64,000 nt of DNA from Nonomuraea fuscirosea. Lineage in GTDB: Bacteria; Actinomycetota; Actinomycetes; Streptosporangiales; Streptosporangiaceae. Positions 8,106 through 64,000 of the stretch are shown here, piece after piece; position 1 is the stretch's first letter, and each line of letters opens with the position of its first letter. The translations under genes and the position numbers were made by a program. The notes under the pieces were generated by a model. That model did no database searches. It was not told the DNA's origin and was given only the letters and a program-made list of their open reading frames with translations. Location: positions 186,001 to 250,000 of the forward strand of contig NZ_PVNG01000014.1 in NCBI RefSeq assembly GCF_003001935.1, written 5' to 3'.

Positions 8106-8897
8106 TCAGAGCGCCTCCTCCCCGTCGAACGGCTCCCCCATGACCGGCACGGCGGCCAGCAGCTCGCGCGTGTACGGATGCGCCGGCGCGGACAGCACGC
8201 TCTCGGTCTCCCCCGACTCCACGATCCGGCCGTGCCGCATGACGCTCACGGTGTCGCACACGTACCGGACGACGGCGAGGTTGTGCGAGATGAACAGGAC
8301 GGTCAGGTCCAGCTCGGCGCGCAGCTCGCGGAGCAGGTTGAGCACGACGCCCTGCACGGAGACGTCGAGCGCGGAGGTGATCTCGTCGGCGATGACGACG
8401 TCCGGCTCGGCGGCCAGCGCCCTGGCTATGGTGACGCGCTGGCACTGGCCGCCGGAGAAGGCCGAGGGGAGGTCGCCGGCCCGCTTCGGGTCGAGGTGGA
8501 CCAGGCCCAGCAGCTCCTCGACCCTGCGCTGTCTGTCCGCCCTGGACAGGCGGCGGCCGGTGGCGCGCATGGCCTCCGCGATCGAGACCCCGACGGGCAT
8601 CCTGGGGTCGAGCGCCGCGTACGGGTCCTGGAAGACGAGCTGGACCCGCCTGCGGGCGGTGCGCGCGGCGGCGGAGCTCCCGGCGATGTCGGCGCCGTCC
8701 AGCCGGATGGTGCCGGCCACGGGCCTGACCAGCCCCACAGCGGCGGCGGCCAGGGTGGACTTGCCCGAGCCCGACTCGCCGACGAGCCCGTGGACGCCGC
8801 CCGAGGCGACGGTGAGGTCCACGCCGTCCACGGCGACGTGCGCGCCGGCGCCGTGCCCGTAACGCACGGTCGTGCCGGTGAATTCGAGTGTGCTCAC
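8106..8897 (-). CDS. Peptide/nickel-type ABC transporter ATP-binding protein (DppF-like)
   Basis: Cytoplasmic ATPase of an oligopeptide-type importer, 263 residues from GTG 8897, which overlaps the preceding stop as GTGA. Walker A is GESGSGKST, the Q-loop is LVFQDPYAAL, the signature is SGGQCQRVTIARAL, Walker B is DVVIADEI (Glu), the D-loop is TSALDV and the H-loop His is in FISHNLAVV. The C-terminal HPYTRELLAAVP is the DppF/OppF hallmark. It would pair with the ATPase half of the fused upstream protein. Confidence 0.93.
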   Translation of the reverse strand: MSTLEFTGTTVRYGHGAGAHVAVDGVDLTVASGGVHGLVGESGSGKSTLAAAAVGLVRPVAGTIRLDGADIAGSSAAARTARRRVQLVFQDPYAALDPRMPVGVSIAEAMRATGRRLSRADRQRRVEELLGLVHLDPKRAGDLPSAFSGGQCQRVTIARALAAEPDVVIADEITSALDVSVQGVVLNLLRELRAELDLTVLFISHNLAVVRYVCDTVSVMRHGRIVESGETESVLSAPAHPYTRELLAAVPVMGEPFDGEEAL

Positions 8898-10618
8898 GCT
8901 CGCGCCTCCTCGGCGACGCCGCCGCTCTCGTCGATGACGGGCAGCGGGCGGGTTCGGTCGGTGCCCATGTGCGGGACGCACGCCACCAGGGCCCGCGTGT
9001 ACGGGTGCCGCGCCTCGTCCAGCCGCGCCGCGGCCACCTCCTCGACGATCTGCCCGTCCTTCATCACCAGCACCCGGTCACAGAACCCGCTGACCAGCGC
9101 GATGTCGTGGGAGATGAACAGGATGGCGCTGCCGGTCCGCCGCCGCGCGTCGCGCAGCACGCGCAGCACCTGGCGCTGCACGGTCACGTCGAGCGCGGTC
9201 GTCGGCTCGTCCGCGATGACCAGCCGCGGCCGGCCCATGAGCCCCATCCCGATCATGGCCCGCTGCCGCATGCCGCCGGACAGCTCGTGCGGGTACTGGC
9301 GGGCGCGGCGCTCGGGCCGCGCGATCCCGACCGAGGCGAGCACGTCCCTGGCCCGGTGCCGGGCCGCGGCCCTGGGGACGCCGTCGTGGGTCCGGCTCAC
9401 CTCGGTGAGCTGCCGGCCGACCGTGAGCGAGGGGTTGAGCGAGGTGAGCGGGTCCTGGAAGACCACGGCCAGCTCCAGGCCGAGCCTGCGGCGGTCGGCG
9501 GCGCGCGGCGCGGCGGTCATGTCGATGCCCTGGAAGCTCAGCCGGGTGGCGTCGATCGCGGCCTCGGGGCCGAGCAGGCCGGCGACGGCCATGGCGGTGA
9601 CGGACTTGCCCGACCCCGAGGCGCCGACGATGCCGACGGTCTCCCCGGGCCGGATGGTCAGGCTCACGCCGCGTACCCGCTCGACGAGCCGTCCTTGCCG
9701 GTCGGGGAAGCTGACGCGCAGGTCCTCGACCTCCACGAGCACCTCAGGATCGCCGGCCCCGGCCCGTGCGCGTGCCTTGCTCGCCCGGGGCCGCAGGGGC
9801 GTCTTCGAGGCGGACTCGCCGGTCAGCGAGCCGATCGCGTTGAGGATCAGGCCGGTGAGGACGATCGCGATGCCGGGGCCGAGGGCCGCCATCGGGTTGA
9901 CGTAGATGCGCGCGATGCCTTCGCGCAGCAGGCGGCCCCAGTCGAAGCCGGGGGCCTGCACGCCCAGGCCGAGGAACGACAGCCCGGCGAAGGAGAGCAG
10001 CGCGGTGGAGGCGTACGCGGCGGTGTTGACCAGCATCGGCGGCGCGATGTTGGGGATCACGTGGCGGAGGATGACGCCGGCCGGTCCGACGCCGACGATC
10101 CTGGCGGCCCGGACGAAGTCGCGCCCGGTCACAGAGGAGGCCAGCGTGTACGTCAGCCGCGCGATCGACGGCACCCCCGCGAACCCCACGGCCAGCATGG
10201 CGCCGCTCGCGGTGGCGCCCCAGATCACGGAGAAGAACAGCGCGAGCAGCAGCCACGGGAACGACAGCAGGATGTCGATGAACGCGCTGACCAGCCGCCG
10301 CAGCGGGCAGGGCAGCACGGTCGCGACGACGCCGAGCACGATCCCGCCGCTCACGGCGACGGCCGTGGCCCCGAGCGCGAGCAGCACCGACAGCCGGGCC
10401 GCGATGAGCACGCGGGCCAGGACGTCTCGGCCGAGGTCGTCGGTGCCGAACGGATGGGCGGCGCTCGGCCCCTGGACGCGGTCGGCCACGGAGGTCGCGG
10501 TGGCGGCGTCGCCCCACACGTACGGCGCGAGCACGATGACGAGCAGCAGCGCGAACGCGCCGAGAACGGTCACGACGCCTTGCGGGCCGCGCAGCCCGCG
10601 CGGGAGGCCGGAGCGCAC
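8894..10618 (-). CDS. Fused ABC permease (DppC-like) and ATPase (DppD-like)
   Basis: A 574-residue single polypeptide. Residues 1 to about 265 are a DppC-type inner-membrane permease with the N-terminal HPFGTDDLGRDVLARVL motif and the EAA-like loop FVRAARIVGVGPAGVILRHV. An Arg/Ala-rich linker follows (residues 270-290). Residues 290-574 are a complete DppD-type ATPase: Walker A GASGSGKSVT, VVFQDPLTSLNPSLTVG, SGGMRQRAMIG, VIADEPTTALDV, FISHDIALV and C-terminal HPYTRALVACVP. In most bacteria these are two genes. The frame is continuous with no sign of an assembly error. Coupled by GTGA to the second ATPase gene and four bases after the DppB-like permease. Confidence 0.92.
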   Translation of the reverse strand: MRSGLPRGLRGPQGVVTVLGAFALLLVIVLAPYVWGDAATATSVADRVQGPSAAHPFGTDDLGRDVLARVLIAARLSVLLALGATAVAVSGGIVLGVVATVLPCPLRRLVSAFIDILLSFPWLLLALFFSVIWGATASGAMLAVGFAGVPSIARLTYTLASSVTGRDFVRAARIVGVGPAGVILRHVIPNIAPPMLVNTAAYASTALLSFAGLSFLGLGVQAPGFDWGRLLREGIARIYVNPMAALGPGIAIVLTGLILNAIGSLTGESASKTPLRPRASKARARAGAGDPEVLVEVEDLRVSFPDRQGRLVERVRGVSLTIRPGETVGIVGASGSGKSVTAMAVAGLLGPEAAIDATRLSFQGIDMTAAPRAADRRRLGLELAVVFQDPLTSLNPSLTVGRQLTEVSRTHDGVPRAAARHRARDVLASVGIARPERRARQYPHELSGGMRQRAMIGMGLMGRPRLVIADEPTTALDVTVQRQVLRVLRDARRRTGSAILFISHDIALVSGFCDRVLVMKDGQIVEEVAAARLDEARHPYTRALVACVPHMGTDRTRPLPVIDESGGVAEEARA

Positions 10619-10622
10619 GATG

Positions 10623-11669
10623 TCAGCCCTCCATGATCGACGAACGGGGGTCGAGGGTGGCCAGAACCAGGTCGATGAGCAGATTGAGGCCGAGGACGAG
10701 CACGGCGTAGACGAGGACGACCCCCTGGATCATCGGATAGTCCTTCGCCGTGATCGACGAGACGATCGTCGAGCCGAGCCCTGGGATCACGAACACGGCC
10801 TCGATGAGCACGGTGCCGGCCACGAGCCCGGTGAGGATGAGCCCTCCGGTCGTGAGCGCGGCGGTGATCATGTTGGGCAGCGCGTGCCGCAGGTAGAGCA
10901 GGCGCGCGGGCAGCCGTTTGCCGCGCGCGGTCGTCATGTACGGGGTCTCCAGCACGGCCAGCATCTCCACGTGCACGATCCGGGCGAGGTAGGCCAGCGG
11001 CCCGACGGCCAGGGCGGCGACCGGCAGCACGGCCTGGGCGGCCCCGCCCCATCCGGCCACGGGCAGCGCGTTCAGCGTGACGCCGAACAGCGCGATGAGG
11101 CCGACGGCGAGCAGGAAGTTCGGGATGGCGATCAGGCCGCTGAGCGCCCAGGAGACCCCGGCGCCGGCCGCGCGCCCGCGCCCGCCGCGCGCCGCTACCG
11201 CCGTGGCGACGCCGATGGGCACGGCGCCGAGCGCGGCAACGAGGAAGGCGAGCAGGGAGAGGACGAGCGTGGTGGGGAACCGGTCGGCGAGCGTGGCGGC
11301 CACGGGACGGTGGGACCGCAGCGAGACGCCGAGGTCGCCGTGCAGCAGGCCGCTCAGGTAGCCGGTGAACTGCCGCCAGGCCGGCTGGTCCAGCCCCAGC
11401 TCCGCCCGGGTGCGTTCGACCAGCTCGGGGGTCGCGCTGGGGCCGAGCGCGGCGCGGACGGGGTCGCCGGGCACGAGGTGCACGACGAGGAACGTGGCGA
11501 CCACGACGACGGCGAGCGAGACCAGCGCCCGGCCGAGGCGGCGCAGCACGAACGAGGCGCGGGGCGACAGCCGCGGCAGGGCGTGGCGATCCCCCCGGCG
11601 CGCCGGATCGGGCCCGGTGGCCGGTCCGGCGGGCGTCGGCCCGGTGGGGGTGGCCGGAGAGATCGCCAT
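10623..11669 (-). CDS. Peptide/nickel-type ABC transporter permease (DppB-like)
   Basis: 348-residue inner-membrane permease. After a Pro/Gly-rich cytoplasmic tail of about 40 residues come about six transmembrane segments, starting LVSLAVVVVATFLVVHLVPGDP. Family features are the first-periplasmic-loop sequence LGLDQPAWRQFTGYLSGLL and the EAA loop YMTTARGKRLPARLLYLRHA. The end is VIPGLGSTIVSSITAKDYPM followed by a final helix. It heads the membrane part of the importer and lies just after the binding-protein gene. Confidence 0.92.
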   Translation of the reverse strand: MAISPATPTGPTPAGPATGPDPARRGDRHALPRLSPRASFVLRRLGRALVSLAVVVVATFLVVHLVPGDPVRAALGPSATPELVERTRAELGLDQPAWRQFTGYLSGLLHGDLGVSLRSHRPVAATLADRFPTTLVLSLLAFLVAALGAVPIGVATAVAARGGRGRAAGAGVSWALSGLIAIPNFLLAVGLIALFGVTLNALPVAGWGGAAQAVLPVAALAVGPLAYLARIVHVEMLAVLETPYMTTARGKRLPARLLYLRHALPNMITAALTTGGLILTGLVAGTVLIEAVFVIPGLGSTIVSSITAKDYPMIQGVVLVYAVLVLGLNLLIDLVLATLDPRSSIMEG

Positions 11670-50924: not shown

Positions 50925-50954
50925 TTGACTTAAAGTGATCGACGTGACTTAGAT
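50925..50954 (+). promoter_or_regulatory. Promoter of the second P450
   Basis: TTGACT (50925-50930), 18 bases, TTAGAT (50949-50954). GTGACTTA/TTGACTTA occurs twice here, a possible direct-repeat binding site. Leader of about 50 bases to GTG 51010. Confidence 0.45.
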
Positions 50955-51009
50955 GGCATCGAGCCGGTGTCCATCAGGCGTCGGCCGCCATCCGACAGGG
51001 GGAAAGACC

Positions 51010-52215
51010 GTGACCGGAGCGCCCGAATACCCCTTCCGCAATCCCACCGCGCTGGAGCCGCCGCCTGAGTGGGCCGAGTTGCGGCAGGACTGTCCGGTGG
51101 CGCCGATCCGGCTGGCCAGTGGTGACGAGGCGCTGCTGCTGACCCGGTACGACGATGTCAGGCAGGTTCTGTCCGATCCGCGTTTCACCCGGCGGCTCGA
51201 CGCCGAAGACGCGGCGCGGGTCACCGCGAACGAGTCCGGCGGCGTGTTCGGGGGCGCCCTCAGCGGCGCGAGCACCATGAGCGGTGAGAACCACCGGGCC
51301 TGGCGGCAGCTGGTCGGCAGGGCGTTCACCGCCAAGCGGGTGACCGCGATGCAGCCCAGGATCCAGGCCATGACCGAGCGGCTCGTGGATCGGATGGTCG
51401 CCGAGGGGCAGCCGGCCGACCTGGTGTCCTCCGTCGGGTTCCCGCTGCCGGTGTGGGCGATCTGCGATCTGCTGGGGGTGCCCGACTCCGACCGGGACCG
51501 GTTCGCGTACTGGTCGGACACCATGCTGAGCATGACCAGGTTCACCCAGGAGGAGATCGACGCCGCGCAGGCCGAGTTCGACGCGTACCTGATGGCGCTG
51601 GTCGCGGCGAAGCGGGCCGAGCCGGGCGACGACCTGATCAGTGAGCTGCTCGCGATGGTCGAGGGGCTGGACGGGCGGCTGACCGAGCAGCTGCTGATGG
51701 GCACGGCCAAGGGGCTGCTGGTCGCCGGGCACGAGACCACCGCCAACATGATCGGCAAGATGATGTCGATGCTGCTCGCCGACCCGGCCCGCTGGCAGGC
51801 GCTGCTGGCCAACCGCGCGCTGATCCGGCCGGCGGTGGAGGAGTCGCTGCGCTTCGACGCGAACCCCGGCTTCGGCATGCCGCGCTACCTCAGCGAGGAG
51901 GTGGAGGTGGGCGGCGAACGGCTGCCAGGGGGCACCACCGTGATCTGCAGCATGGCCGCGGCCAACCGGGACGAGCGGCAGTTCGAGCGGGCCGCCGAGA
52001 TGCGGCTGGACCGTTCGCCCAACCCGCACGTGGCCTTCGGGGTCGGCCCGCACTCCTGTCTCGGCCAGGCGCTGGCCCGCACCGAGCTGCAGACCGTGCT
52101 GAAGGTCCTGCTCGATCGGCTGCCCACGCTGGAGCCGGCCGTCCCCGCCGCCGCGTTGCGGCGCCGCGAGGGCCTGATCGTGGGAGGGTTGGAACAGGTC
52201 CAGGTCCGATGGTGA
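51010..52215 (+). CDS. Cytochrome P450 (paralog of the one at 48318)
   Basis: 401 residues from GTG 51010 (GGGGGAAAG upstream). I-helix LLVAGHETTANMIGKMMSML, K-helix EESLR, heme loop FGVGPHSCLGQ with Cys350. Many long blocks agree with the upstream P450 (LLTRYDDV, GFPLPV, AGHETTANMIGK, CSMAAANRDE), so the two arose by duplication. It has no ferredoxin or reductase of its own and probably borrows those of the neighbouring operon. It is followed by a TetR gene on the same strand. Confidence 0.93.
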   Translation: MTGAPEYPFRNPTALEPPPEWAELRQDCPVAPIRLASGDEALLLTRYDDVRQVLSDPRFTRRLDAEDAARVTANESGGVFGGALSGASTMSGENHRAWRQLVGRAFTAKRVTAMQPRIQAMTERLVDRMVAEGQPADLVSSVGFPLPVWAICDLLGVPDSDRDRFAYWSDTMLSMTRFTQEEIDAAQAEFDAYLMALVAAKRAEPGDDLISELLAMVEGLDGRLTEQLLMGTAKGLLVAGHETTANMIGKMMSMLLADPARWQALLANRALIRPAVEESLRFDANPGFGMPRYLSEEVEVGGERLPGGTTVICSMAAANRDERQFERAAEMRLDRSPNPHVAFGVGPHSCLGQALARTELQTVLKVLLDRLPTLEPAVPAAALRRREGLIVGGLEQVQVRW

Positions 52216-52353
52216 TACGTCGTGAGAGCCGGGTGAGCATGATGGGGCGCGGCAGCCGGCCGGCGCGTCCGTGTACGGTCGTGCGCACGATGTGCGGAGG
52301 ACGTGCGGCGGATGCGCGGCGGATCGCGTGAGCGCGGGGAGCGGAGGCCGGTG

Positions 52354-53076
52354 GTGAGCGGGGCCGGGAGGGGCGAGCGGGCACAGGAGACGCGGGAGGC
52401 CATCCTGGACGCCGCCGAACGGCTGTTCGCCGAGCACGGGGTCGGCGACGTGTCCAACCGGCAGATCGCCCAGGCGGCCGGGCAGGCGAACAACTTCGCC
52501 GTCGGCTACCACTTCGGCACCAAGCCCGACCTCGTCCGCGCGATCGTGCGCCGCTACACCACGGAGACGGAGGGACGGCGCCTGCGGATGCTGGCGGCCA
52601 TCGACTCCTCCGGCGGCTCCGGCGGCTCCGGCGGTCCTGGCGGTCCTGGCGGCTCCGGTGCCCCCGGCGGTCCTGGGGGCTCCGACGACTTGCGTGCGTG
52701 GATCTCGTGCCTGGTGCGCCCGGCCACCGGTCACCTCGACGCGCTGGGCGTGCCGTGCTGGCGGGCCCGGTGCCTGGCGCAGTTCGACACCGTTCCCGGC
52801 CTGCGCCGGATCGTCATCGACGAGTCCGTGGCCACGCCCTCGATGCGGCGGACGCTGGAGGGCATGTTCCGCCTGCTGCCCGAGCTGCCGGAGGAGGTGC
52901 ACCGCGAACGCAGTGACATGAGCCGCCTGCTCGTCGTGCACACGCTGGCCGAGCGCGAACGGGCGCTGCACGAGGGCGGCGGCACGGCGCGGACGAGCTG
53001 GGAGGCCACCGCCACCGGGCTCGTCGACGCCCTGGCCGGTCTGTGGCCGGCCCCGGTGACGACGGAAGCGGGCTGA
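52354..53076 (+). CDS. TetR-family regulator with a Gly-rich linker
   Basis: 240 residues from GTG 52354, six bases after GGAGG. HTH: AILDAAERLFAEHGVGDVSN then AQAAGQANNFAVGYHFGTKP. Between the DNA-binding part and the ligand domain is a run of about 25 residues made almost only of Gly, Ser and Pro (SGGSGGSGGPGGPGGSG), encoded by 9-bp repeats. The C-terminal domain carries CWRARCLAQFDTVPGLRRIV. It likely controls the second P450, 138 bases upstream on the same strand. The flexible insert is atypical and may be recent repeat growth. Confidence 0.87.
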   Translation: MSGAGRGERAQETREAILDAAERLFAEHGVGDVSNRQIAQAAGQANNFAVGYHFGTKPDLVRAIVRRYTTETEGRRLRMLAAIDSSGGSGGSGGPGGPGGSGAPGGPGGSDDLRAWISCLVRPATGHLDALGVPCWRARCLAQFDTVPGLRRIVIDESVATPSMRRTLEGMFRLLPELPEEVHRERSDMSRLLVVHTLAERERALHEGGGTARTSWEATATGLVDALAGLWPAPVTTEAG

Positions 53077-53105
53077 AGGCCGGCGAGTCCCGTCGTGCGC
53101 GCGAC

Positions 53106-53159
53106 ACCGGGCGTCGGATGGCGGCCCTCCAGACCGGGCGTCGGATGGCGGCCCTCCAG
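53106..53159. repeat. 27-bp tandem duplication
   Basis: Two units, ACCGGGCGTCGGATGGCGGC plus CCTCCAG, at 53106-53132 and 53133-53159 just after the TetR stop. The remainder of the 281-base gap is AT-richer and includes TAAAGT near 53310 as a possible -10 for the following gene. Confidence 0.85.
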
Positions 53160-53357
53160 GCGGGTGCCGGACGGGCGGCAGGCGTCGGGAGGGAGTCAGT
53201 GTGCGGTGGACACCTGGCCATTTCCTGGGTGAATTCTGACAGGTCTGACGTGGGACAATACTTGCGCACCGCCTTACAAGTCGGCCTTTTTCCCAGTTAT
53301 GTGCTTTAAAGTAGGGCGCCGTCCGTCCGGGCCGATCAAAAAGGAGCTTCTGCGCGC

Positions 53358-55022
53358 ATGTCCGTCACTCCTCTCGACAAGGCCGGCGGGGGCGACGTCC
53401 GGCGGGTGCGAGGCAACGACTACCGGGTGCTCCAGCCGCCCGAGCGCTTCACCCCCGAGCTCCGGGTGAGCGTGATCATCCCCGCCTACGGCGCCCAGGA
53501 GAAGCTGGACCTGGTGCTGCAGGGGCTGGCGCGGCAGACGTACCCGGCGGAGCTGACCGAGATCATCGTCGTGGACAACGGCAGCTCGCCCCCGCTGCGG
53601 CTGCCGGAGGGCACGGCGGCCCGGCTGATCGTCTGCGACCTGCCCGGCCGGGCCAACGCGCGCAACGCCGGGCTGGCCGAGGCCACCGGCGACGTCATCC
53701 ACTGGCTCGACTCCGACGTGGTGCTCACGCCCGGCGCCGTCGAGGCGCACATGCGCTGGCACCACGCCGCCCCCTACCTCTCCGTCACCGGCTACATCCG
53801 CTTCACCTCCGCGCCGCTGCCCGCCGAGCTGCCCGAGGACCTGGAGGCGGCGTTCGAGCCGGCGGAGCCGCACGCGTGGCTGGTCGGGCTGGTCGAGCGG
53901 ACCAACGGTCTCGTCGGTCACACGGCCCGGCCGTTCAGCCTGCACGTCGGCGGGGCCACCTCGGTCGGCCGCCGCCTCGTCGAAGCCGCCGGCCCCATGG
54001 ACGACGAGCTGATCCTCGGCCAGGACACCGAGATGGGCTACCGCCTCGCGCAGGCGGGAGCGGTGTTCATCCCGGAGCCGCGGGCACGCGCGTACCACCT
54101 CGGCCCGACCATGCGCATGCGCGAGCAGCAGCGCATCGACCGGGTCAGCCACGCCTTCGTCGCCGACCGCATCCCGGCCTACCAGTGGCTGCGCACGCAT
54201 CCGGCGCGGCAGTGGAAGGTGCCGTACGTGACCGCGGTGGTGGACGGCACGGCCGGGTACGAGGCCGTGCGCGCCAGCGTGGACGCCCTGCTCGCCGCCA
54301 CGGTCGCGGACCTGTCCGTGGTCGTCGTCGGCCCCTGGGACACCCTCGACCGCGACCGGCGCGCCCCGCTCAAGGACCCGAACCTGGACCTGGTCCTGGT
54401 GCACGGCCACTACGAGCACGAGAGCCGGGTACGCCTGGCGACCGCCGAGGAGGTGGACCCGTCCACGCCCTTCGTGCTGCGCCTGCCCGCCGGATGGGCG
54501 CCCGGCGAGGACAGCCTGGCCCGGCTGCTGGCACTGGCCCGCAACGAGGCGCTCGGCCTGGTCGAGGTGCTGCTGCGGGAGTCGGCGGAAGGGGTCGTCT
54601 CGGCCCGGCTCGAACGCGTGTCCTCCTTCGCCCGCGCCCGGCTGGTCGCCCGGCCCGGTGAGTCCCTCGACGACGTCGTGGACGAGGTCTCGGGCGTGCG
54701 GTGGGTGGACGCGGAGACGTACGACTTCAGCGACGAGCCTGGGGAGCTGGTGGGGCGGCGCTCGGCGTACAAGGCCAGGGTGCAGGCCGAGACCGAGGCG
54801 GCCCGGCTGGCCAAGGAGGCCGAGCGGCTGCGCGCCCAGGTGGCCAAGTGGCGGGACGAGGCGGCGCGCTGGCGCAAGAGCACGGTGGAGCTGCGCAGGG
54901 AGGTCGGCACGCTGCGCCGCGAACTCCACGCCGCCCAGCGCGGCCAGCAGGCGCGGCGCGGCATGCGCGCGATCCTGGCCGGCCGGATGAAACGCGCCCT
55001 CGGCCGCAGAACCCGCAACTGA
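53358..55022 (+). CDS. Family 2 glycosyltransferase with degenerate second half and C-terminal coiled coil
   Basis: 554 residues. Residues 35-280 are a GT-A domain: VSVIIPAYGAQEKLDLVLQG, EIIVVDNGSS, DVIHWLDSDVVLTPG (metal Asp), FSLHVGGATSVGRRLVEAAG, and acceptor loop ILGQDTEMGYRLAQAGAVF. Residues 290-440 repeat strands reminiscent of a second GT-A domain (LSVVVVGPWDTL) but without its DxD, so probably non-catalytic. Residues 465-530 form a charged coiled coil (AARLAKEAERLRAQVAKWRD), and the end is Arg-rich. Such fusions act on cell-surface polysaccharides. GGAG lies 11 bases before ATG 53358. Monocistronic. Confidence 0.88.
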   Translation: MSVTPLDKAGGGDVRRVRGNDYRVLQPPERFTPELRVSVIIPAYGAQEKLDLVLQGLARQTYPAELTEIIVVDNGSSPPLRLPEGTAARLIVCDLPGRANARNAGLAEATGDVIHWLDSDVVLTPGAVEAHMRWHHAAPYLSVTGYIRFTSAPLPAELPEDLEAAFEPAEPHAWLVGLVERTNGLVGHTARPFSLHVGGATSVGRRLVEAAGPMDDELILGQDTEMGYRLAQAGAVFIPEPRARAYHLGPTMRMREQQRIDRVSHAFVADRIPAYQWLRTHPARQWKVPYVTAVVDGTAGYEAVRASVDALLAATVADLSVVVVGPWDTLDRDRRAPLKDPNLDLVLVHGHYEHESRVRLATAEEVDPSTPFVLRLPAGWAPGEDSLARLLALARNEALGLVEVLLRESAEGVVSARLERVSSFARARLVARPGESLDDVVDEVSGVRWVDAETYDFSDEPGELVGRRSAYKARVQAETEAARLAKEAERLRAQVAKWRDEAARWRKSTVELRREVGTLRRELHAAQRGQQARRGMRAILAGRMKRALGRRTRN

Positions 55023-55161
55023 CCCGTTCCGCCCCTGACCCCGGCACCGGAACCTCCGTGCGAGGCGATCCCGGCGCTGGAGTGTCGGGTCGTGGGGTGA
55101 TCCTCCGGGCGGGTCAGCGCGCCTTCGGGAGGTGGCGGGGCGGGCGACGGAGCATGGGGGG

Positions 55162-55905
55162 ATGCTGCACGGCAACCGGGTGTCCGTCCTGAGCCTGGCG
55201 CTGACCTCGGGGGCGGTCGACGCCTTCACCTTCCTCGCCCTGGGCCAGGTCTTCACCTCGAACATGACCGGCAACCTGGTCCTGCTCGGCGTCTCGGCGG
55301 GCCACGGCCGGCTGGCCGACGCGGTCGGCTCGGTGGTGGCGCTGATCGCCTTCACCTGCGGTCTGGGCGCCGCCTTCCGCTTCCTCGGCCGGCTCACCGG
55401 CTGGTCGGCCCGCATCAGGGTGGCCGTCGGCGTCGAGCTGGTGCTGCTGGCCGGCCTGGCCGCCGTCTGGGCGCTGGCCCAGATCCCTGGGTCCGTGCTG
55501 GCGCAGGCCATGAACCCGGCGCCGGCGGACGGCTCGCAGCCGGCGATGCAGGACGCGGGTCAGGCGGTGGCCGAAGGGGTGCGGCTGGCGATGATCGCCG
55601 CGGCCGCGGTCGCCATGGGCGTCCAGAGTGCGGTCACGCATCGGCTGCACACGTTCGTGGGGTCGACGACGTTCATCACCGGTGCGCTGACCAGCTCGCT
55701 CTTCCGCCACCTCACGCCCGGCACCGGCGAGCCGCACCTGGCCGGGCTGATCGCCGTGCTGCTCGCTCTGGCCGGCGGGGCCGCCGTCACGACGCTCTGC
55801 GTGTGGCTGCTGCCCGCCGCCGCTCCCGTGATCGCGCTCGCGGGCGTGGCCACCGCCCTGGTCTCCAGCGCCTTCGTCCGGCCGCCGCCCGCACCCCCGC
55901 CATGA
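55162..55905 (+). CDS. YoaK family membrane protein (DUF1275)
   Basis: 247 residues from ATG 55162 (GGGGGG upstream). Six hydrophobic helices. Family signature at the N-terminus: SGAVDAFTFLALGQVFTSNM followed by TGNLVLLG, and in the middle ALTSSLFRH after TTFITG. DUF1275/YoaK members are small inner-membrane proteins of unknown function. The C-terminus is Pro-rich. Possibly transcribed with the glucosidase 125 bases downstream. Confidence 0.9.
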   Translation: MLHGNRVSVLSLALTSGAVDAFTFLALGQVFTSNMTGNLVLLGVSAGHGRLADAVGSVVALIAFTCGLGAAFRFLGRLTGWSARIRVAVGVELVLLAGLAAVWALAQIPGSVLAQAMNPAPADGSQPAMQDAGQAVAEGVRLAMIAAAAVAMGVQSAVTHRLHTFVGSTTFITGALTSSLFRHLTPGTGEPHLAGLIAVLLALAGGAAVTTLCVWLLPAAAPVIALAGVATALVSSAFVRPPPAPPP

Positions 55906-56029
55906 GCCCGTCCGGGCACGAGCGCTCCCGGCCGTCGGAGGCACCGGCCGTGAGCGTGCGCGGCGGGCGCACCGGGACCTCACCTTCCGGGGATGAGGCG
56001 GGGATTCGTACGAGGAGGATGCTGCGAGG

Positions 56030-58729
56030 ATGGATGCCGAACGGATTCGACTGGCGCGGTCGGCCGCTCCGGACGCGCCCTGGCGCCGATGGGGCCCCTA
56101 CCTGAGCGAACGCCAATGGGGCACGGTCCGCGAGGACTACAGCGCGGACGGCGACGCGTGGAACTCCTTCCCGCACGACCACGCCCGCTCCCGCGCCTAC
56201 CGCTGGGGTGAGGACGGTCTCGGCGGCGTCAGCGACGACAAGCAGCGGCTCTGCCTGTCGATGGCGCTGTGGAACGGCAGGGACCCGATCCTCAAGGAGC
56301 GGCCGTTCGGGCTGACGAACGGCGAGGGCAACCACGGCGAGGACGTGAAGGAGTACTACTTCCACCTCGACAGCACGCCCACGCACTCCTACCTGCGCTA
56401 CCTGTACAAATATCCGCAGGCGGCCTTCCCGTACGACGACCTCGTGCGGACCGGCGCGGCCAGGGACCGGCGCTCCTTCGAGTACGAGCTGCTCGACACG
56501 GGCGTCTTCGCGGGCGACCGCTACTTCGACGTGTTCGTCGAGTACGCCAAGGCCGCCCCGGACGACCTGCTCATGCTCGTCACCGTGGCCAACAGGGGGC
56601 CGGAGGACGCGGTGCTGCACGTCCTGCCGACGCTGTGGTTCCGCAACACCTGGTCGTGGGGGCAGGGCGCGGACCGGCCTGTCATGCGGGCCACCGGGCC
56701 GGGCGTGATCAGGGCCGAGCATCATGAGCTGGGCGCGTACCGGCTGCACTGCTCGGCCGGCGTCCCGCTGCTGTTCACCGAGAACGAGACGAACCACGAG
56801 CGCCTGCACGGGAGCCGCAACGCCACCCCGTACGTCAAGGACGGCATCGGCCGGCACGTGGTGGGCGGGGAGGCCGGGGCGGTCAACCCGGAGCTCACCG
56901 GGACGAAGGCCGCCGCGTACCACACGCTGACCGTCCCCGCCGGCGGCGAGGCGACCGTCCGCGTCCGCCTCGCCGAGGAGGACGCGCACGACGTGGAAGG
57001 TGTACGGGATCCGCTCGGCACGGCGGACGTGGGAGACCCGCTCGGCGCCGGCTTCGACGCGGTGATGAGCGCGCGGCGGGCGGAGGCCGACGCCTTCTAC
57101 GCCGGGCTGACCTCGGACACGATGAGCCAGGACGAGGCGCTCGTGCTCCGGCGGGCGCTGTCGGGCCTGCTGTGGAGCAAGCAGTACTACCTGTTCGACG
57201 TGGAGACCTGGCTGGCCGAGCACGGCGCCGACCCGTGGACCCGCACCGGGCAGCGCAACCACGCCTGGTACGACCTCGACGCCGACGACATCCTGCTCAT
57301 GCCGGACACGTGGGAGTATCCCTGGTTCGCCGCCTGGGACCTGGCCTTCCACGCGGTCGCGCTGGCCATGGTGGATCCCGAGCTGGCCAAGCACCAGATC
57401 GAGGTGCTGCTCGGCGAGCGGTACCTGCATCCCAACGGCCAGGTGCCGGCGTACGAGTGGGCGTTCGGCGACGTCAACCCGCCCGTGCAGGCGTGGGCCG
57501 CCCGCTTCGTCGACAGCATGGACCGCGGGCTCGACGGCGCCGGCGACCTGGACTTCGTCGAGCGGGTGTTCCAGAAGCTGCTGGTCAACTTCACCTGGTG
57601 GGTCAACCGCAAGGACCCGGACGGCCGCAACGTGTTCCAGGGCGGGTTCCTCGGCCTGGACAACATCGGCGTGTTCGACCGCAGCGCGGCGCTGCCGACG
57701 GGCGGGACGCTCGACCAGGCCGACGGCACGGCGTGGATGGCGTTCTACACGCAGACGATGCTGCAGATGGCCGCGGAGCTGTCGGACCGCTCGCCCGCGT
57801 ACGAGGATCTGGCCGTGCGCTTCGCCACGCACTTCCTGCGCATCTCCGCCTCGACCGACCGGATCGGCGAGGTGAAGGAGGAGATGTGGGACGAGGCGGA
57901 CGGGTTCTTCTACGACGTGCTGCGCCTGCCCGGCGGCGACGCGGTCAGGCTCAAGGTGCGGTCGCTGGTGGGGCTGCTGCCGCTCTGCGCGACGACGGTG
58001 TTCACGCCGCGCCCGGACGAGAGCGACGCCCGCCTCTACCACCGGGTCAGGGAGTTCGCCCGCCGCCATCCCGACCTGGCCGCGGGCATGTCGGCGGCCG
58101 ACCGGCCCGGCGTCGGCGGCCGGCGCATGCTCTCGCTGCTGGACGAGCGGAAGCTGCGGCGGGTGCTGGCGCGCATGCTCGACGAGGAGGAGTTCCTGAG
58201 CCCGTACGGGATCCGCTCGTTGTCGCGGCACCACGCCGCGCACCCGTACACGTTCCACGTGGACGGCCGCGAGTACCGGGTGGAGTATCTGCCGGCCGAG
58301 TCGGACAGCGGCATGTTCGGCGGCAACTCCAACTGGCGCGGGCCGGTGTGGTTCCCGGTCAACGTCCTCGTCATCCGGGCGTTGCAGCACCTGTACGCCT
58401 TCTACGGCGACGACTTCACGGTGGAGTGCCCGACGGGCTCGGGCCACCGGATGACCCTCTACCAGGTGGGCGAGGAGATCTCCGCCCGCCTGGTCCGGAT
58501 CTTCCTGCGGGACGCGGGCGGGCGGCGGCCGGTGTACGGAGGGCAGCGGACGTTCCAGGAGGATCCGCACTGGCGGGATCTGATCCAGTTCCACGAGTAC
58601 TTCCACGGCGACGACGGCGCCGGCCTGGGGGCGGCGCACCAGACGGGATGGACCGCGCTCGTGGCCGTCCTGCTGGTCATGAAGGACCGGCTCTCCGCCG
58701 CCGACTTCCGTCCGGACGACCTCGGCTGA
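56030..58729 (+). CDS. GH63-like glucosidase
   Basis: 899 residues, soluble, (alpha/alpha)6-barrel glycoside hydrolase of the MGH1/GH63-like group that removes or processes alpha-glucosyl units. Features: WGPYLSERQWGTVREDYSAD at the N-terminus, EYYFHLDSTPTHSYLRYLYK, WSKQYYLFDVETWLAEHG, DTWEYPWFAAWDLAFHAVAL with candidate catalytic acid Asp, ANPPVQAWAA-like VNPPVQAWAARF, NRKDPDGRNVFQGGFLGLDN, and C-terminal FGGNSNWRGPVWFPVNVLVI. The length matches actinobacterial homologs of about 880-900. AGGAGG lies upstream of the ATG. It may act on trehalose-, glycogen- or mannosylglucose-type substrates; the last is inference. Confidence 0.9.
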   Translation: MDAERIRLARSAAPDAPWRRWGPYLSERQWGTVREDYSADGDAWNSFPHDHARSRAYRWGEDGLGGVSDDKQRLCLSMALWNGRDPILKERPFGLTNGEGNHGEDVKEYYFHLDSTPTHSYLRYLYKYPQAAFPYDDLVRTGAARDRRSFEYELLDTGVFAGDRYFDVFVEYAKAAPDDLLMLVTVANRGPEDAVLHVLPTLWFRNTWSWGQGADRPVMRATGPGVIRAEHHELGAYRLHCSAGVPLLFTENETNHERLHGSRNATPYVKDGIGRHVVGGEAGAVNPELTGTKAAAYHTLTVPAGGEATVRVRLAEEDAHDVEGVRDPLGTADVGDPLGAGFDAVMSARRAEADAFYAGLTSDTMSQDEALVLRRALSGLLWSKQYYLFDVETWLAEHGADPWTRTGQRNHAWYDLDADDILLMPDTWEYPWFAAWDLAFHAVALAMVDPELAKHQIEVLLGERYLHPNGQVPAYEWAFGDVNPPVQAWAARFVDSMDRGLDGAGDLDFVERVFQKLLVNFTWWVNRKDPDGRNVFQGGFLGLDNIGVFDRSAALPTGGTLDQADGTAWMAFYTQTMLQMAAELSDRSPAYEDLAVRFATHFLRISASTDRIGEVKEEMWDEADGFFYDVLRLPGGDAVRLKVRSLVGLLPLCATTVFTPRPDESDARLYHRVREFARRHPDLAAGMSAADRPGVGGRRMLSLLDERKLRRVLARMLDEEEFLSPYGIRSLSRHHAAHPYTFHVDGREYRVEYLPAESDSGMFGGNSNWRGPVWFPVNVLVIRALQHLYAFYGDDFTVECPTGSGHRMTLYQVGEEISARLVRIFLRDAGGRRPVYGGQRTFQEDPHWRDLIQFHEYFHGDDGAGLGAAHQTGWTALVAVLLVMKDRLSAADFRPDDLG

Positions 58730-59001: not shown

Positions 59002-61245
59002 GTGCGCGTCACTCCATCCCTCAGATCCCTCCGCACGCTGACCGCCGCTCTGACCGCCGCCGTCACCGCCGTCACCGCCGCCCTGGCGCCGGTCCCGGCG
59101 GCGGCGCAGGCCGCGCCGCCCGCCGACGACGTCAAGCCCGTCCGGGTCGTGATCCTGGTCGACGAGTCGGGCAGCCTGTCGGGCGCCGACGTCGCGCGTG
59201 AGCGCGCCGCCGCCCAGCTCATCGCCCTCAGCGAGCTGTCGCCGCGCTCGCAGGTGTCCGTGGTGGGCTTCGGCAGCTCCAACGGCCGGGGGCAGTCCGC
59301 CGTGGACATCGTGTGCCCGCTGACCGGGGTGGAGACCGCCCAGGACCGCGAGTCGCTGAGCCGGTGCGTGGAGCGGTTACGCCGCAGGGAGAGCGGCGAC
59401 GGCAACGACACCGACCACGCCGCCGCCCTCGACCAGGCGCTGAGCATCATGAACGAGCCCGACGACCAGCAGCGCTCGAAGATCGTGTTCCTGCTGACCG
59501 ACGGCGTGCTCGACGTCGCCGGCAGCCCTCAGTACGGCGCCGACGCCGAATCCCGCAACCGCAACGCCCAGAAGCAGATCGACAGCGGCCTCAAGGACGC
59601 CGAGCGGGCGAAGGTGCAGATCTGGCCGCTGGGCTTCGGCTCGGCCGACAAGTCCAGCCTCGACGCCTTCGCCGCGGGCGGCTGGCGGGAGCCGTGCGGC
59701 GGCCAGGAGTCGGCCACGCCGCGGGCCAGGGTGGTCGCCGACTCGAAGGACGTCGAGCGCTCGCTGCTGGAGGCGTTCGCCTACGCCAGGTGCGCGGGCA
59801 TCGGCGACTCGGTGACCGACTCGCTCGACTCGGGCGCCACCGTCGACCTCCACGTCACCATCCCGATCATCGCCACCGACGGCTCGATCGTGGTGGTCAA
59901 GCGCGACCGGCGGATTCAGGTCACCTACTTCGACCCCGAGGGCACCCAGGTGCCCAAGCAGGGCGAGCAGAACGAGTCGACCTTCCAGGCCGCGGGCGAG
60001 GCCGGCCCGGTCGAGTCGCTGCGCATCCGCAACCCGGTGCCCGGCCAGTGGCGCATCCAGCTGAAGTCGCCGCCCGGCGTCGACCGCCAGGACGTCAGCG
60101 CGACCGTCGTGTGGCAGGGCGCGCTGCGCGCCTCGATCTCGCTGAGCAACCCGCGGCCGCGTCCCGGCGAGCAGGTGACGGTGCGGCTGCGGCTGCAGAC
60201 CAGGACGGGCACGATCTCCGACCCGGCGGCGCTCGCGGGCCTGCGCTTCACCGCCGGGCTCACCGGCGAGGGCTTCCAGGAGACGCCGATCGCGCTCGGC
60301 GACACGGGCGACGGCGCCGACCGGGCCAAGGACGACGGCGAGTTCTCCGGCCGGGTCGCCGTCCCGGAGACGGCCACCGGCACGCTGTCCTTCCTGGGCA
60401 AGGTGACCGGGCCGGGCGTGGCGGGCGACGAGCGTCCTTACGAGACCCGGATCGCCGGGCCCGCCGACCGGCTGCGCGGCCAGGTGCGGCTCGAAGCGGC
60501 CGTCGCCGAGCCGGGCGGCGAGGTCGCCGGCACCGTCGGCGTCACCAACGACGGCGAGCCCGCGCGGCTCGGCCTGCGACTGCTCGACACCCCCGGCACC
60601 GTGAGCCTGTCGGCCCAGGAGCTCCAGGCGCCCGCGGGCACCTCCGAGCACGCCTTCACCCTCCGGATCGCCGCCGACGCGGCCGAGGGGCAGGTCGGCG
60701 GCCAGGTGCAGGTGGTGGACGCGGCCGGGCAGGTGGTCGCGGAGGACTTCGTGAAGGTCGAGGTCCAGCGGCCCACGCCGATGTGGCTGCGGGCGCTCCA
60801 GGCGCTGCTCATCCTCCTCGTCGTGGTGGCCGCCGGGCTGCTGTTCCTGATGATCAGGCGGCGCCGGCGGCAGCGGGCCGCCGACCCGAGCGAGCTGACG
60901 CTGTACCTGTTCGACCGTCCGGGCGAGCCGCACATCAGCCGGCTGCAGGCGCCGCTCGGCTCGGGCCCCGAGTTCGGCTTCGACGTCACCGACAGGCGGC
61001 TGGTGCACACGTACGGCACCGGCTACTCCGTGCGCCGGGGCGAGGGCAGGTCGGTGCTGGTGACCGACCCCTCGGGGCGGCGGCTCGACCCGCTCTTCCC
61101 CGGCCGGCCGATCGCCCTGACCGACCACCTCTACCTGGGCGTGGACGACGGCCGGGCCAAGGGCGGCGAGCAGCCCGCGTACGGGCCGGCCGAGCCGCAG
61201 CCGAGCAGGACCCACAGACCGATGCCAGGCGACGACCTGTTGTGA
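59002..61245 (+). CDS. Exported, membrane-anchored vWA-domain protein
   Basis: 747 residues from GTG 59002 (AGGAAA upstream). Signal peptide with cleavage near AAAQA (residue 36). vWA domain with MIDAS motif DESGS at residues 54-58, the Thr position in GDGNDTDHAAALDQAL and the Asp in FLLTDGVLD. Three or four beta-sandwich modules follow to about residue 590. One transmembrane helix (ALLILLVVVAAGLLFLMI, near 600-620) and an Arg cluster put the last 130 residues (LYLFDRPGEPHISRLQAPLG) in the cytosol. It is seven bases upstream of the tubulin-like gene, so the cytosolic tail may contact that protein and link an extracellular adhesion or sensing domain to it. Confidence 0.9.
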   Translation: MRVTPSLRSLRTLTAALTAAVTAVTAALAPVPAAAQAAPPADDVKPVRVVILVDESGSLSGADVARERAAAQLIALSELSPRSQVSVVGFGSSNGRGQSAVDIVCPLTGVETAQDRESLSRCVERLRRRESGDGNDTDHAAALDQALSIMNEPDDQQRSKIVFLLTDGVLDVAGSPQYGADAESRNRNAQKQIDSGLKDAERAKVQIWPLGFGSADKSSLDAFAAGGWREPCGGQESATPRARVVADSKDVERSLLEAFAYARCAGIGDSVTDSLDSGATVDLHVTIPIIATDGSIVVVKRDRRIQVTYFDPEGTQVPKQGEQNESTFQAAGEAGPVESLRIRNPVPGQWRIQLKSPPGVDRQDVSATVVWQGALRASISLSNPRPRPGEQVTVRLRLQTRTGTISDPAALAGLRFTAGLTGEGFQETPIALGDTGDGADRAKDDGEFSGRVAVPETATGTLSFLGKVTGPGVAGDERPYETRIAGPADRLRGQVRLEAAVAEPGGEVAGTVGVTNDGEPARLGLRLLDTPGTVSLSAQELQAPAGTSEHAFTLRIAADAAEGQVGGQVQVVDAAGQVVAEDFVKVEVQRPTPMWLRALQALLILLVVVAAGLLFLMIRRRRRQRAADPSELTLYLFDRPGEPHISRLQAPLGSGPEFGFDVTDRRLVHTYGTGYSVRRGEGRSVLVTDPSGRRLDPLFPGRPIALTDHLYLGVDDGRAKGGEQPAYGPAEPQPSRTHRPMPGDDLL

Positions 61246-61252
61246 GGGGCGC

Positions 61253-64000
61253 ATGAGGATCTTCGATCCGATGATGTTCGTAGGGCTCGGCGGCACCGGC
61301 TGCCGGGTCGGAGTGGAGTTGGAACGCTGGCTGCGCGACGAGCTGTGCGGCCCTGACGGCATGGACCTGATCAGGAACTTCAGCTGGCAGAACTACCAGC
61401 CGTACGAGCTGCCCTCCTGCCTGCAGTTCGTCTACGTCGACCTCAACGAGGACGAGCTGAACCGCACCCGGCGGCGGGTGGTGCCGACCGAGAAGGAGTT
61501 CCCGGCGGCAGCCCGCACCGCCCATCTGATCCACGACGTGGTGCCGAAGTTCGACTCCTACCCGGAGGTGGCCCGCAGCCTGCGGGCCACGCTGGGCGAC
61601 CACGTGAAGGACTGGCTGCCGCCGCGCGAGCAGGAGCCGCTGGTGGCGCCGCTGATGCGGGGCGCGGGCCAGTTGCCCACGGTGGCCAGGGCGGCCCTGT
61701 TCGAGCGGATGCGGCACGGCACCGGGCCGGTGGTCCAGGGCGTCGAGGACGCCATCGGCGCGATCAGCAACTCCGGCGGCGAGCTGGCCGCGCTCGGCGG
61801 CCGGCTGCGGCGGCGCTGCGACGTGTTCGTGGCCTACTCGGTCGCGGGCGGCACCGGCAGCGGCATCTTCTACGACTACCTGCACCTCATCGGCGACGCC
61901 TTCGCCCGCAGCGGCATCAGGGCGCGCATCCACCCGCTGGTCGTCATGCCGTCCGCGTTCACCGAGGGCAAGGGCGGCGGGCGCCGGGCCAGGCTCAACG
62001 CCGGTTCGAGCCTGCTGGACCTGTTCCGGCTGGTGGACGACCAGAACGCGCCGCACGCGGGCACGCAGGTGGACGAGCAGGGCATCGTCGGCGAGCTGGG
62101 CGTGCGCTACCCCACCAGGGGTGACGTGCGGCTGGCGACCGGCACGGTGCAGACCGCGTTCCTGTTCACGATGCCGCCCGGCGTGCAGCGCGACGACCTG
62201 CACCGCTCGATCGCCTCGCTGGTCGTCTCGCTGGCCGGCACCCGGCCGAGCACCCCGGGCGAGAGCGCCGGCGGCATGGAGGACCGGGGAGAGTCGTCCT
62301 TCGCCGACGACTTCATCAACCGCGCCGTCGAGCGCGACGTGCCCGCCGCCTCGGGCATCGGCAACCGGGGCGTCTCGACGGCCTTCGTCTCCTCCATGAC
62401 CGTGCCCGTGGAGGAGCTGGCCGACCTGGTCAGCTCGCGGCTGCTGGCCCGCGCGGTGACACAGCTCGACGCCGTCCCGCCGGGCGCCGCCGAGACCAAC
62501 GTGGACGAGATCCGCCGCCTGTTCACCACCACCAACCTGGAGCCGCTGCACACCCGCGCGCCGCTGCCCCCGCCCGAGGCCCGCCCGGCCACGGGCGCGG
62601 CCGACATCCAGAAGTCGCTGGCCAACCGGATGCGGGAGATGCAGGACAACCTCGTCTCCCTCGAACGGGCGCTCAGCCGCAGCGTCCCGGTCATGGCCCA
62701 GGAGGTGGACGTGCGCAGGGGCGCGATGGAGGGGCTCGGCCACGTCGACCCGTTCCGGCTGCGGCGCGTGGTGGTCGGCCTGCCCGGCGACGTGCACGAG
62801 GCCGACCGGCTGGGCTTCGCCGGGCTGCTCGACCACCGCAGGGCGCAGCCGCGCAAGCCGTTCGAGGGCATGAGCGAGGCTCCCCCGCAGCCCGGGCCGA
62901 TGCGCGACCGGCTGCTGCGCAAGGTGCAGTGGTCCGACCCCGTGGTGCAGGCCTGGCTCGCCGGTCAGGACGCCTGGTACCTGTGGAGCAGCCAGGCGCT
63001 CTGGCACCGCGCCTGGGCCGACCAGATGCCCCGCTGGGAGCCGCGGCGCAAGCAGCTCCTGCGCGAGGTGCGCGAGTTCACCCAGGTGTTCGCGGAGCAC
63101 GCCGAGAACGACCCCGAGCGGTTCGCCCGCCGGGCGGGCGAACTGTACGAGACGCGCGTGGGCGTCTACCACCTGCTGCCGCCCGCCGGGGCGGAGGCGT
63201 TCTACGACGCGGTCGTGCGCCGCTTCGTGGACGTCTTCGTCGCCCGGCAGATCCTGCGCCCGACCGACACGGAGGCCGGCGTGGTCAACGCGCTGCTCGG
63301 CCCCGAGGGCTGGCGGCACGCCTACGACCTGGCCTGGCGTACGGGCAAGCCGGCCGACGCGCTCAACTGGGTGCGCGAGCGGCTCAAGCTGGAGGTCAAG
63401 AAGCTGTTCAAGGACCGCGACGAGGCCGCCGCGCTGGGCGAGCAGCCGCTGCTGCCCTCGCTGGCCGACATCCTGGCCCAGGCCGCCACGGGCGGCGGCG
63501 ACGACCCGCAGGTGCGGCAGTTCCAGCTCAAGCTGGCCGACCTGGTGCCGGGCGGCTTCACCCCCGACGGCACCGGTGAGCTGAAGGTGCTGGTCTCCTA
63601 CCCGGCGCCGGGCAAGGACCTGGACCTGGAGCGGTTCCTGCGCGACCGGATCGACCTGCCGGGCACGCCCGACTTCCGCAACATCGACGCCGACTCGGTC
63701 ACGGTGGTGCAGCTGCGCACCTCGATGAGCGTGACCCAGGTGCGCGAGCTGCGCGAGGTGCTGGCCAGCTGGGCCGAGGCGCTGCACGACGAGCGCCCGC
63801 AGGACTACCTGAAGTGGCGCCAGCGGCTCGGCTACGACTTCGGCTATCTCGCCACCACCGAGGAGCACCGCGTGCGCATCCTGCACCGGCTGCTCTGCCT
63901 GCTGTGGAACGGGCAGGTCAGCGTGGCGGAGGGCGAGCCGAGCTCGCCGTCGCGGATCAGGATCGACATCGAGGGCGGCTCGATGACGCTGCCCTTGACC
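61253..64000 (+). CDS. Large tubulin/FtsZ-like protein (Tubulin_2 family), partial
   Basis: The frame from ATG 61253 is open for 916 codons to the window edge, so the C-terminus is missing. GTPase-fold signs: an N-terminal phosphate-binding loop FVGLGGTGCRVGVELERWL (Gly11-Gly16), then FVYVDLNEDEL, and the tubulin/FtsZ signature YSVAGGTGSGIFYDY at residues 195-209. FtsZ has GGGTGTG, so one Gly is replaced by Ala. HPLVVMPSAF and the Asn in RLNAGSSLLDLF continue the fold to about residue 400. The rest is a long alpha/beta and helical extension without a family I know. Members are proposed to work with vWA proteins in membrane remodelling. The vWA gene directly upstream supports this. Cytosolic. 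Confidence 0.88.
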   Translation, partial: MRIFDPMMFVGLGGTGCRVGVELERWLRDELCGPDGMDLIRNFSWQNYQPYELPSCLQFVYVDLNEDELNRTRRRVVPTEKEFPAAARTAHLIHDVVPKFDSYPEVARSLRATLGDHVKDWLPPREQEPLVAPLMRGAGQLPTVARAALFERMRHGTGPVVQGVEDAIGAISNSGGELAALGGRLRRRCDVFVAYSVAGGTGSGIFYDYLHLIGDAFARSGIRARIHPLVVMPSAFTEGKGGGRRARLNAGSSLLDLFRLVDDQNAPHAGTQVDEQGIVGELGVRYPTRGDVRLATGTVQTAFLFTMPPGVQRDDLHRSIASLVVSLAGTRPSTPGESAGGMEDRGESSFADDFINRAVERDVPAASGIGNRGVSTAFVSSMTVPVEELADLVSSRLLARAVTQLDAVPPGAAETNVDEIRRLFTTTNLEPLHTRAPLPPPEARPATGAADIQKSLANRMREMQDNLVSLERALSRSVPVMAQEVDVRRGAMEGLGHVDPFRLRRVVVGLPGDVHEADRLGFAGLLDHRRAQPRKPFEGMSEAPPQPGPMRDRLLRKVQWSDPVVQAWLAGQDAWYLWSSQALWHRAWADQMPRWEPRRKQLLREVREFTQVFAEHAENDPERFARRAGELYETRVGVYHLLPPAGAEAFYDAVVRRFVDVFVARQILRPTDTEAGVVNALLGPEGWRHAYDLAWRTGKPADALNWVRERLKLEVKKLFKDRDEAAALGEQPLLPSLADILAQAATGGGDDPQVRQFQLKLADLVPGGFTPDGTGELKVLVSYPAPGKDLDLERFLRDRIDLPGTPDFRNIDADSVTVVQLRTSMSVTQVRELREVLASWAEALHDERPQDYLKWRQRLGYDFGYLATTEEHRVRILHRLLCLLWNGQVSVAEGEPSSPSRIRIDIEGGSMTLPLT

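Follow-up and report, generated by a model that had tools for sequence, protein, structure and literature searches.

What does an actinobacterium do with a membrane protein bearing a von Willebrand factor A (vWA) domain whose gene is coupled to that of a tubulin-like GTPase, and which further genes belong to the pair? The question is raised by the 3′ end of a 64,000-nucleotide stretch of Nonomuraea fuscirosea (contig NZ_PVNG01000014.1, positions 186,001 to 250,000), here called the window. The pairing itself is already known since 2010, when operons of FtsZ-like 1 (FtsZl1, PF13809) with vWA proteins were described (Makarova and Koonin, 2010, PMC2875224). What would be new is a tubulin fold predicted in full, the assignment of the sixth gene product (g6) to GAP1, and a possible pseudotubulin encoded by the third gene (g3). 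An initial annotation had expected further partners past position 64000, and reading on has indeed revealed four more operon genes. They are listed with the two window genes below, where L002 is the stretch that reads past the window and a window position equals the L002 position plus 56999.

59002..61245, forward strand: vWA membrane protein gene, GTG start, 747 residues
61253..64000 in the window, forward strand: FtsZl1/Tubulin_2 gene, ATG start, 916 of 1037 residues inside the window; stop at L002:7367, window-equivalent 64366
L002:7370-9205, same direction: g3, 611 residues
L002:9195-10193, same direction: degenerate kinase-like gene with predicted C-terminal transmembrane (TM) segment, 332 residues
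L002:10190-11194, same direction: DO-GTPase-like GTPase gene, 334 residues
L002:11191-12885, same direction: g6, predicted to be GAP1-like with a C-terminal TM segment, 564 residues

The seven-base gap between the vWA and the tubulin-like gene, as initially annotated, has been confirmed, and from the tubulin-like gene onward through the four genes 3′ of it, successive neighbours overlap or sit at most 2 bases apart. The only Tubulin_2 match in the window's genome is that of the operon. Gene content, conserved order, linkage and a vWA domain with its metal ion-dependent adhesion site (MIDAS) are the established part of the operon reading. Very probably the operon belongs, as a variant, with the vWA/FtsZl1 and DO-GTPase/GAP1 systems. 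With moderate confidence we take its six genes to encode a GTP-gated tubulin system tethered to the inner membrane, of which the window holds the 5′ end.

Linkage of the first two genes, which the initial annotation had anticipated, is borne out among 98 relatives (the genome of the window counted), since the tubulin-like gene has been found in 13 of them, the vWA gene at E<=1e-30 in the same 13, and in 12 the two are direct neighbours; the remaining genome has them at the ends of separate contigs. The tubulin-like gene occurs in 11 of 52 congeneric genomes, and a Tubulin_2 gene in 10 of 296 genomes sampled across the phylum. From the 238 relatives that a scan of contigs has yielded, the best 80 have been kept, so that the locus counts describe the closer relatives and not all FtsZl1 loci. 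Among loci whose contig extends far enough, the vWA gene occurs in 74/74, g3 in 74/74, the kinase-like gene in 73/73, the GTPase gene in 73/73 and g6 in 68/71; all six genes stand in constant order in 68 of the 80 loci, and the order of the genes present is kept in 80/80. Six relatives have tubulin-like proteins 86-90% identical to that of the window, five from Nonomuraea and one from [Actinomadura] parvosata. Among more distant actinobacterial loci, single-sequence BLAST at E<=0.01 has matched vWA and g3 at L030 and no partner gene at seven others (L028, L029, L031-L035). Co-occurrence is not strict, since 2 of 15 genomes with g3 lack the tubulin; in one of them g3 is an orphan, in the other it is accompanied by a g6-like frame. 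L163 (reverse strand, 8455-10761) holds a long orphan homologue of g3 with hydrophobic stretches, and the congeneric genome that it comes from gives no Tubulin_2 match. Six loci (L099, L104-L108) carry two extra genes between the vWA and tubulin genes, one of the DUF4407 family by a Pfam run on L104 alone; the hosts of such loci are Kibdelosporangium, Actinokineospora, Amycolatopsis and one genome named Nocardia.

The vWA identity rests on matches to PF13519 (E 8.7e-12) and PF00092 (E 4.5e-9). The domain occupies about residues 47-225, and its MIDAS, annotated from the start as an intact DxSxS motif, is kept together with the later Thr-Asp in 75/75 aligned homologues, the window's copy included. 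The N-terminus is Ala-rich and, judged by eye, a putative signal peptide; between the vWA domain and residue 600 no curated Pfam match has been found. A plain hydropathy scan gives a single hydrophobic stretch at 600-618, in keeping with the one transmembrane helix proposed initially, followed by a tail at 620-747 that would be cytosolic. Exactly one such stretch is present in 67 of 75 homologues, and all TM counts across the operon families are based on a simple hydropathy threshold.

The product of the second gene matches PF13809 Tubulin_2 over residues 9-402 (E 1.7e-57; 195.7 bits, cut-off 27). It carries the T4 loop AGGTGSG, and T1 and T4 loops are present in 81/81 aligned homologues, so its placement in the tubulin superfamily stands. 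It is not the giant it was first called, as its 1037 residues compare with 1051 in the first family member described (PMC2875224). Structure models have been made for the proteins of N. candida, whose tubulin-like protein is 90% identical to that of the window. The model shows a complete predicted tubulin fold with both the nucleotide-binding and the C-terminal domain, into which a helical insert of ~360 residues (about 410-770) is placed before S8. The whole fold and the T1 and T4 loops are shared with CetZ, alpha/beta-tubulin and FtsZ, at 10-17% identity among the structural matches listed, while the insert and a diverged T7 set the protein apart from them. A profile search against solved structures has returned nothing significant for it, with tubulin gamma at E 0.97 ranked below unrelated chains. 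One congeneric genome carries, besides a full-length tubulin-like gene, a second copy that looks decayed (L048, G333:C1:6534900-6554600).

With the FtsZl1 family of 2010 (PMC2875224), for which an actinobacterial clade was reported, this actinobacterial operon shares the tubulin family, a length of about 1000 residues, and vWA, protein kinase and GTPase neighbours. In contrast to that account, the kinase here is degenerate, g3 and a GAP1-like g6 are described, and H7 and the C-terminal tubulin parts, unidentified at the time, are present in the predicted structure. The family has been defined by an extended coiled coil followed by a helical C-terminal domain, where our model has a helical insert within the tubulin fold. 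Whether FtsZl1 is a true tubulin able to form filaments was left open in 2010 (PMC2875224), and a phylogeny of 2023, by the available part of its text, left the family out as too divergent (PMC9871819).

The kinase-like protein has a weak Pkinase match in Pfam; because the HRD Asp is found in 7/73 and the DFG Asp in 32/73, it is a pseudokinase in most members by its sequence, and 38 of 59 unfused proteins have a C-terminal TM segment. The GTPase family keeps the P-loop Lys and KxD in 73/73, FFDxAG followed by Glu in 63/73, and N-terminal Cys residues at 4, 7 and 51 in 62/73, 66/73 and 73/73, which make a candidate zinc ribbon. For g6 there is no Pfam match, and a Pfam search for GAP1-N2 had first suggested an operon without any GAP1. 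This has been revised after a profile comparison in which the N-terminal 220 residues of g6 match GAP1 at E 4.6e-11 (1.4e-11 with a clean set), whereas, as controls, the other five families of the operon give E>=0.29 and a reversed profile gives 0.38; a GAP1-like domain in g6 is thus predicted. TM segments of g6 lie at the C-terminal end in 43/66 members, and at least one is found in 60/66. Membrane anchors are predicted on the vWA protein, the kinase-like protein, g6 and most g3 homologues. Two further profile matches, GTPase with g6 (E 2e-7) and kinase with GTPase (E 8e-6 over 22 columns), have been set aside as likely artefacts, the former of fused frames in the g6 set. Pfam-detectable GAP1-N2 has been found in 2 of 22 genomes with a Tubulin_2 gene, both times on contigs without the operon, and in none of the other 20; the genome of the window has a Pfam-detectable GAP1-N2/DO-GTPase2 locus away from the operon (G000:C11:21493-26109).

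The available text of Kaur et al. (2020, PMC7159879) describes DO-GTPase/GAP1 conflict systems in which tubulins are present at ∼52% of GAP1-N2 loci, joined in actinobacteria by a membrane vWA protein. As far as that text goes, the operon shares with this theme a tubulin with a helical part, the membrane vWA protein, a GTPase with an N-terminal Cys motif, a GAP1-like component and richness in TM segments, and differs by a GAP1 below Pfam detection, a degenerate tail-anchored kinase and the presence of g3. The actinobacterial tubulin subtype of that text (PMC7159879) has an FNIII-HRDC fusion; here, a search for HRDC has found none, either among the six operon proteins (E<=1) or among eight frames flanking the operon (1e-4), although a diverged FNIII could escape. 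What the initial annotation had seen as a transmembrane link holds in that a vWA membrane protein is linked to a tubulin-like gene; a two-part link between adhesion and filament falls short, as the system is membrane-associated, has at least six parts, and includes a GAP1-like component besides a GTPase switch.

For g3, hydrophobic stretches occur in 65 of 78 homologues, some with uncertain starts, and 118 of 125 stretches in 56 aligned proteins begin at residue 340-349 (N. candida numbering); none is seen in the window's own g3 or its eight closest relatives (L049-L056). A motif resembling the T1/T4 GTP loops appears in 2 of 76 only. One may suppose that g3 is no tubulin paralogue at all, being an unrelated scaffold made of an alpha/beta part and a helical bundle, which we regard as quite possible, if somewhat short of an even chance. 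Foldseek gives g3 no match below 0.001, its profile search against solved structures a best E of 0.0059 for a coiled-coil entry, and direct profile comparison with the tubulin-like protein (whole, with inserts removed, or C-terminal parts only) no signal; the top matches by Z among those listed are helical bundles such as talin (9.7), which cover only the insert. However, 21 of the 50 listed matches span both ends of the model, and all of these are tubulin, CetZ or FtsZ chains, aligned over 182-202 residues at 4.2-4.9 Å. By our own reading of secondary structure, the helical insert moreover occupies the same place in the fold order of the g3 and FtsZl1 models.

Taken as a pathway, the extracellular vWA part would bind a metal-dependent ligand at the cell wall, and its signal would cross the single TM segment to the cytosolic tail. 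The threshold could be set by the GTPase and its GAP1-like partner, for which the degenerate kinase would act as a scaffold. Once tripped, the FtsZl1 protein would assemble with GTP at the membrane, probably on g3, and the assembly would act on the envelope or gather effectors, so that its use would lie in defence or the response to envelope damage and not in routine division. The operon probably encodes a membrane-bound, GTP-driven response system, and we give this mechanism and the conflict role about an even chance of being right. If the defence reading is true, a bacterial immune system with a surface receptor would be switched by a cytoskeletal polymer. With a predicted full fold, a fixed list of six partner genes and g3 as a candidate partner, the question of FtsZl1 filaments can be put to a direct test in harmless soil bacteria.

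Several observations weigh against the proposed explanation. We have found no experimental work on the family among the matches listed for the open-access literature (titles and starts of abstracts, with subscription journals mostly outside), and the patchy occurrence would also suit a niche trait unrelated to defence. PADLOC returns nothing for four of the six operon proteins. Of the other two, the kinase-like protein matches the defence-system kinase models MkoA (E 3.4e-11) and PD-T4-6, a result that kinases at large may give, and the GTPase matches mad8 (E 0.002) over a P-loop stretch. For the tubulin-like model, Foldseek reaches no better E-value than 2.5e-3. The window's GTPase scores 26.8 bits against DO-GTPase2 (24.4 in another run) where the cut-off is 27; the same gene in G298 and G317 exceeds it with 32.8 and 30.9 bits. 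The PycTM module of Streptomyces relatives, described below, is not found beside the Nonomuraea operon.

Makarova and Koonin themselves proposed membrane remodelling (PMC2875224), and in a machine for vesicles, invaginations or hyphal cross-walls the tubulin would deform the membrane directly, held to the cell wall through the vWA protein. Several membrane-anchored partners and the full predicted fold agree with this, but the tubulin-like gene has not been found in 41 of 52 congeneric genomes, which therefore argues against a general morphological need, and the GAP1-like and PycTM/Crp/AAA-like associations point to signalling, so that we consider remodelling rather unlikely. A tubulin-like protein that never polymerises and signals purely as a sensor or switch GTPase seems somewhat less likely still, as the complete predicted fold with its C-terminal domain and the T1 and T4 loops of all 81 aligned homologues speak against it, even though the second catalytic acid position (own alignment, n=81) is Asp in 59, Glu in 2, Ala in 18 and Ser in 2, the first is Ser or Thr in common forms, the helical insert is long and the model has a low-confidence stretch at 335-346.

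The PycTM/Crp/AAA-like associations come from the surroundings of relatives' operons, where the following module has been observed.

L110:1429-7295, upstream of the operon in Streptomyces, similar in L103, L109, L112, L114-L116, L118-L120, L122, L124 and L125: Crp-like cyclic nucleotide (cNMP)-binding regulator, possible cyclase-like protein, AAA-like protein, gX (unknown) and PycTM-family effector

Of the 56 loci in which the vWA gene is preceded by more than 6 kb, 13 have a PycTM-family gene upstream, and every one of these belongs to Streptomyces; the assignment is based on the L110 protein (PF18967, E 2.6e-16, and PADLOC PycTM) and extended to the other loci with a profile built from it. 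The cyclase-like protein of L110 carries a biotinyl-lipoyl domain, and its family has no Pfam cyclase match and is not called a cyclase here. In Actinomadura, Kineosporia and other genera, related Crp-like and cyclase-like genes adjoin the operon on its upstream or its downstream side. These neighbours resemble Pycsar (PycC/PycTM), although PycTM, Crp and cyclase-like genes have not been seen at the locus in the window's genome, where eight flanking frames give no Pfam match to a cyclase or Pyc effector at E<=1e-4. Although none of these associations is seen in the window's own surroundings, they speak for a part in signalling and defence rather than in housekeeping.

On the tubulin tree the T7/H8 acidic residue has been lost twice, in L086 (Kineosporia) and in the Streptomyces loci, and the gX module is near both of these two events. 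With room on the contig, gX is found in 14 of 15 loci with Ala or Ser and, as a weak match, in 1 of 41 others; the exceptions are L123 (Ala, room, no gX) and L100 (Asp, weak gX match). Gamma-tubulin acts as a template or cap for microtubules. By extension, one may imagine an immune machine of two tubulins, in which a membrane-anchored pseudotubulin g3 without GTP loops would serve FtsZl1 as template or cap, both having a helical insert in the C-terminal domain from one ancestor, and in which the vWA receptor and the GTPase/GAP1 pair would decide filament growth. The Streptomyces and Kineosporia tubulin would have lost its hydrolysis residue where effectors joined, and may then form stable, effector-triggering filaments. 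We offer this picture tentatively and think it improbable as a whole.

The remaining neighbours of the operon are listed for completeness.

Window 50953-58729, upstream: cytochrome P450, TetR regulator, family 2 glycosyltransferase, DUF1275 and MGH1/GH63-like glycoside hydrolase genes, all ordinary
L002:13008-17247, window-equivalent 70007-74246, just downstream: NIT-sensor histidine kinase, Roadblock protein and small GTPase

The open frame of the histidine kinase starts 122 bp 3′ of g6, with the Roadblock protein and the small GTPase behind it, a block that we take to be conservon-like and that looks separate from the operon. Of nine congeneric loci examined, three lack it, one of them having no room on its contig, and in the other six it follows the operon at a gap of ~2.5-3 kb.
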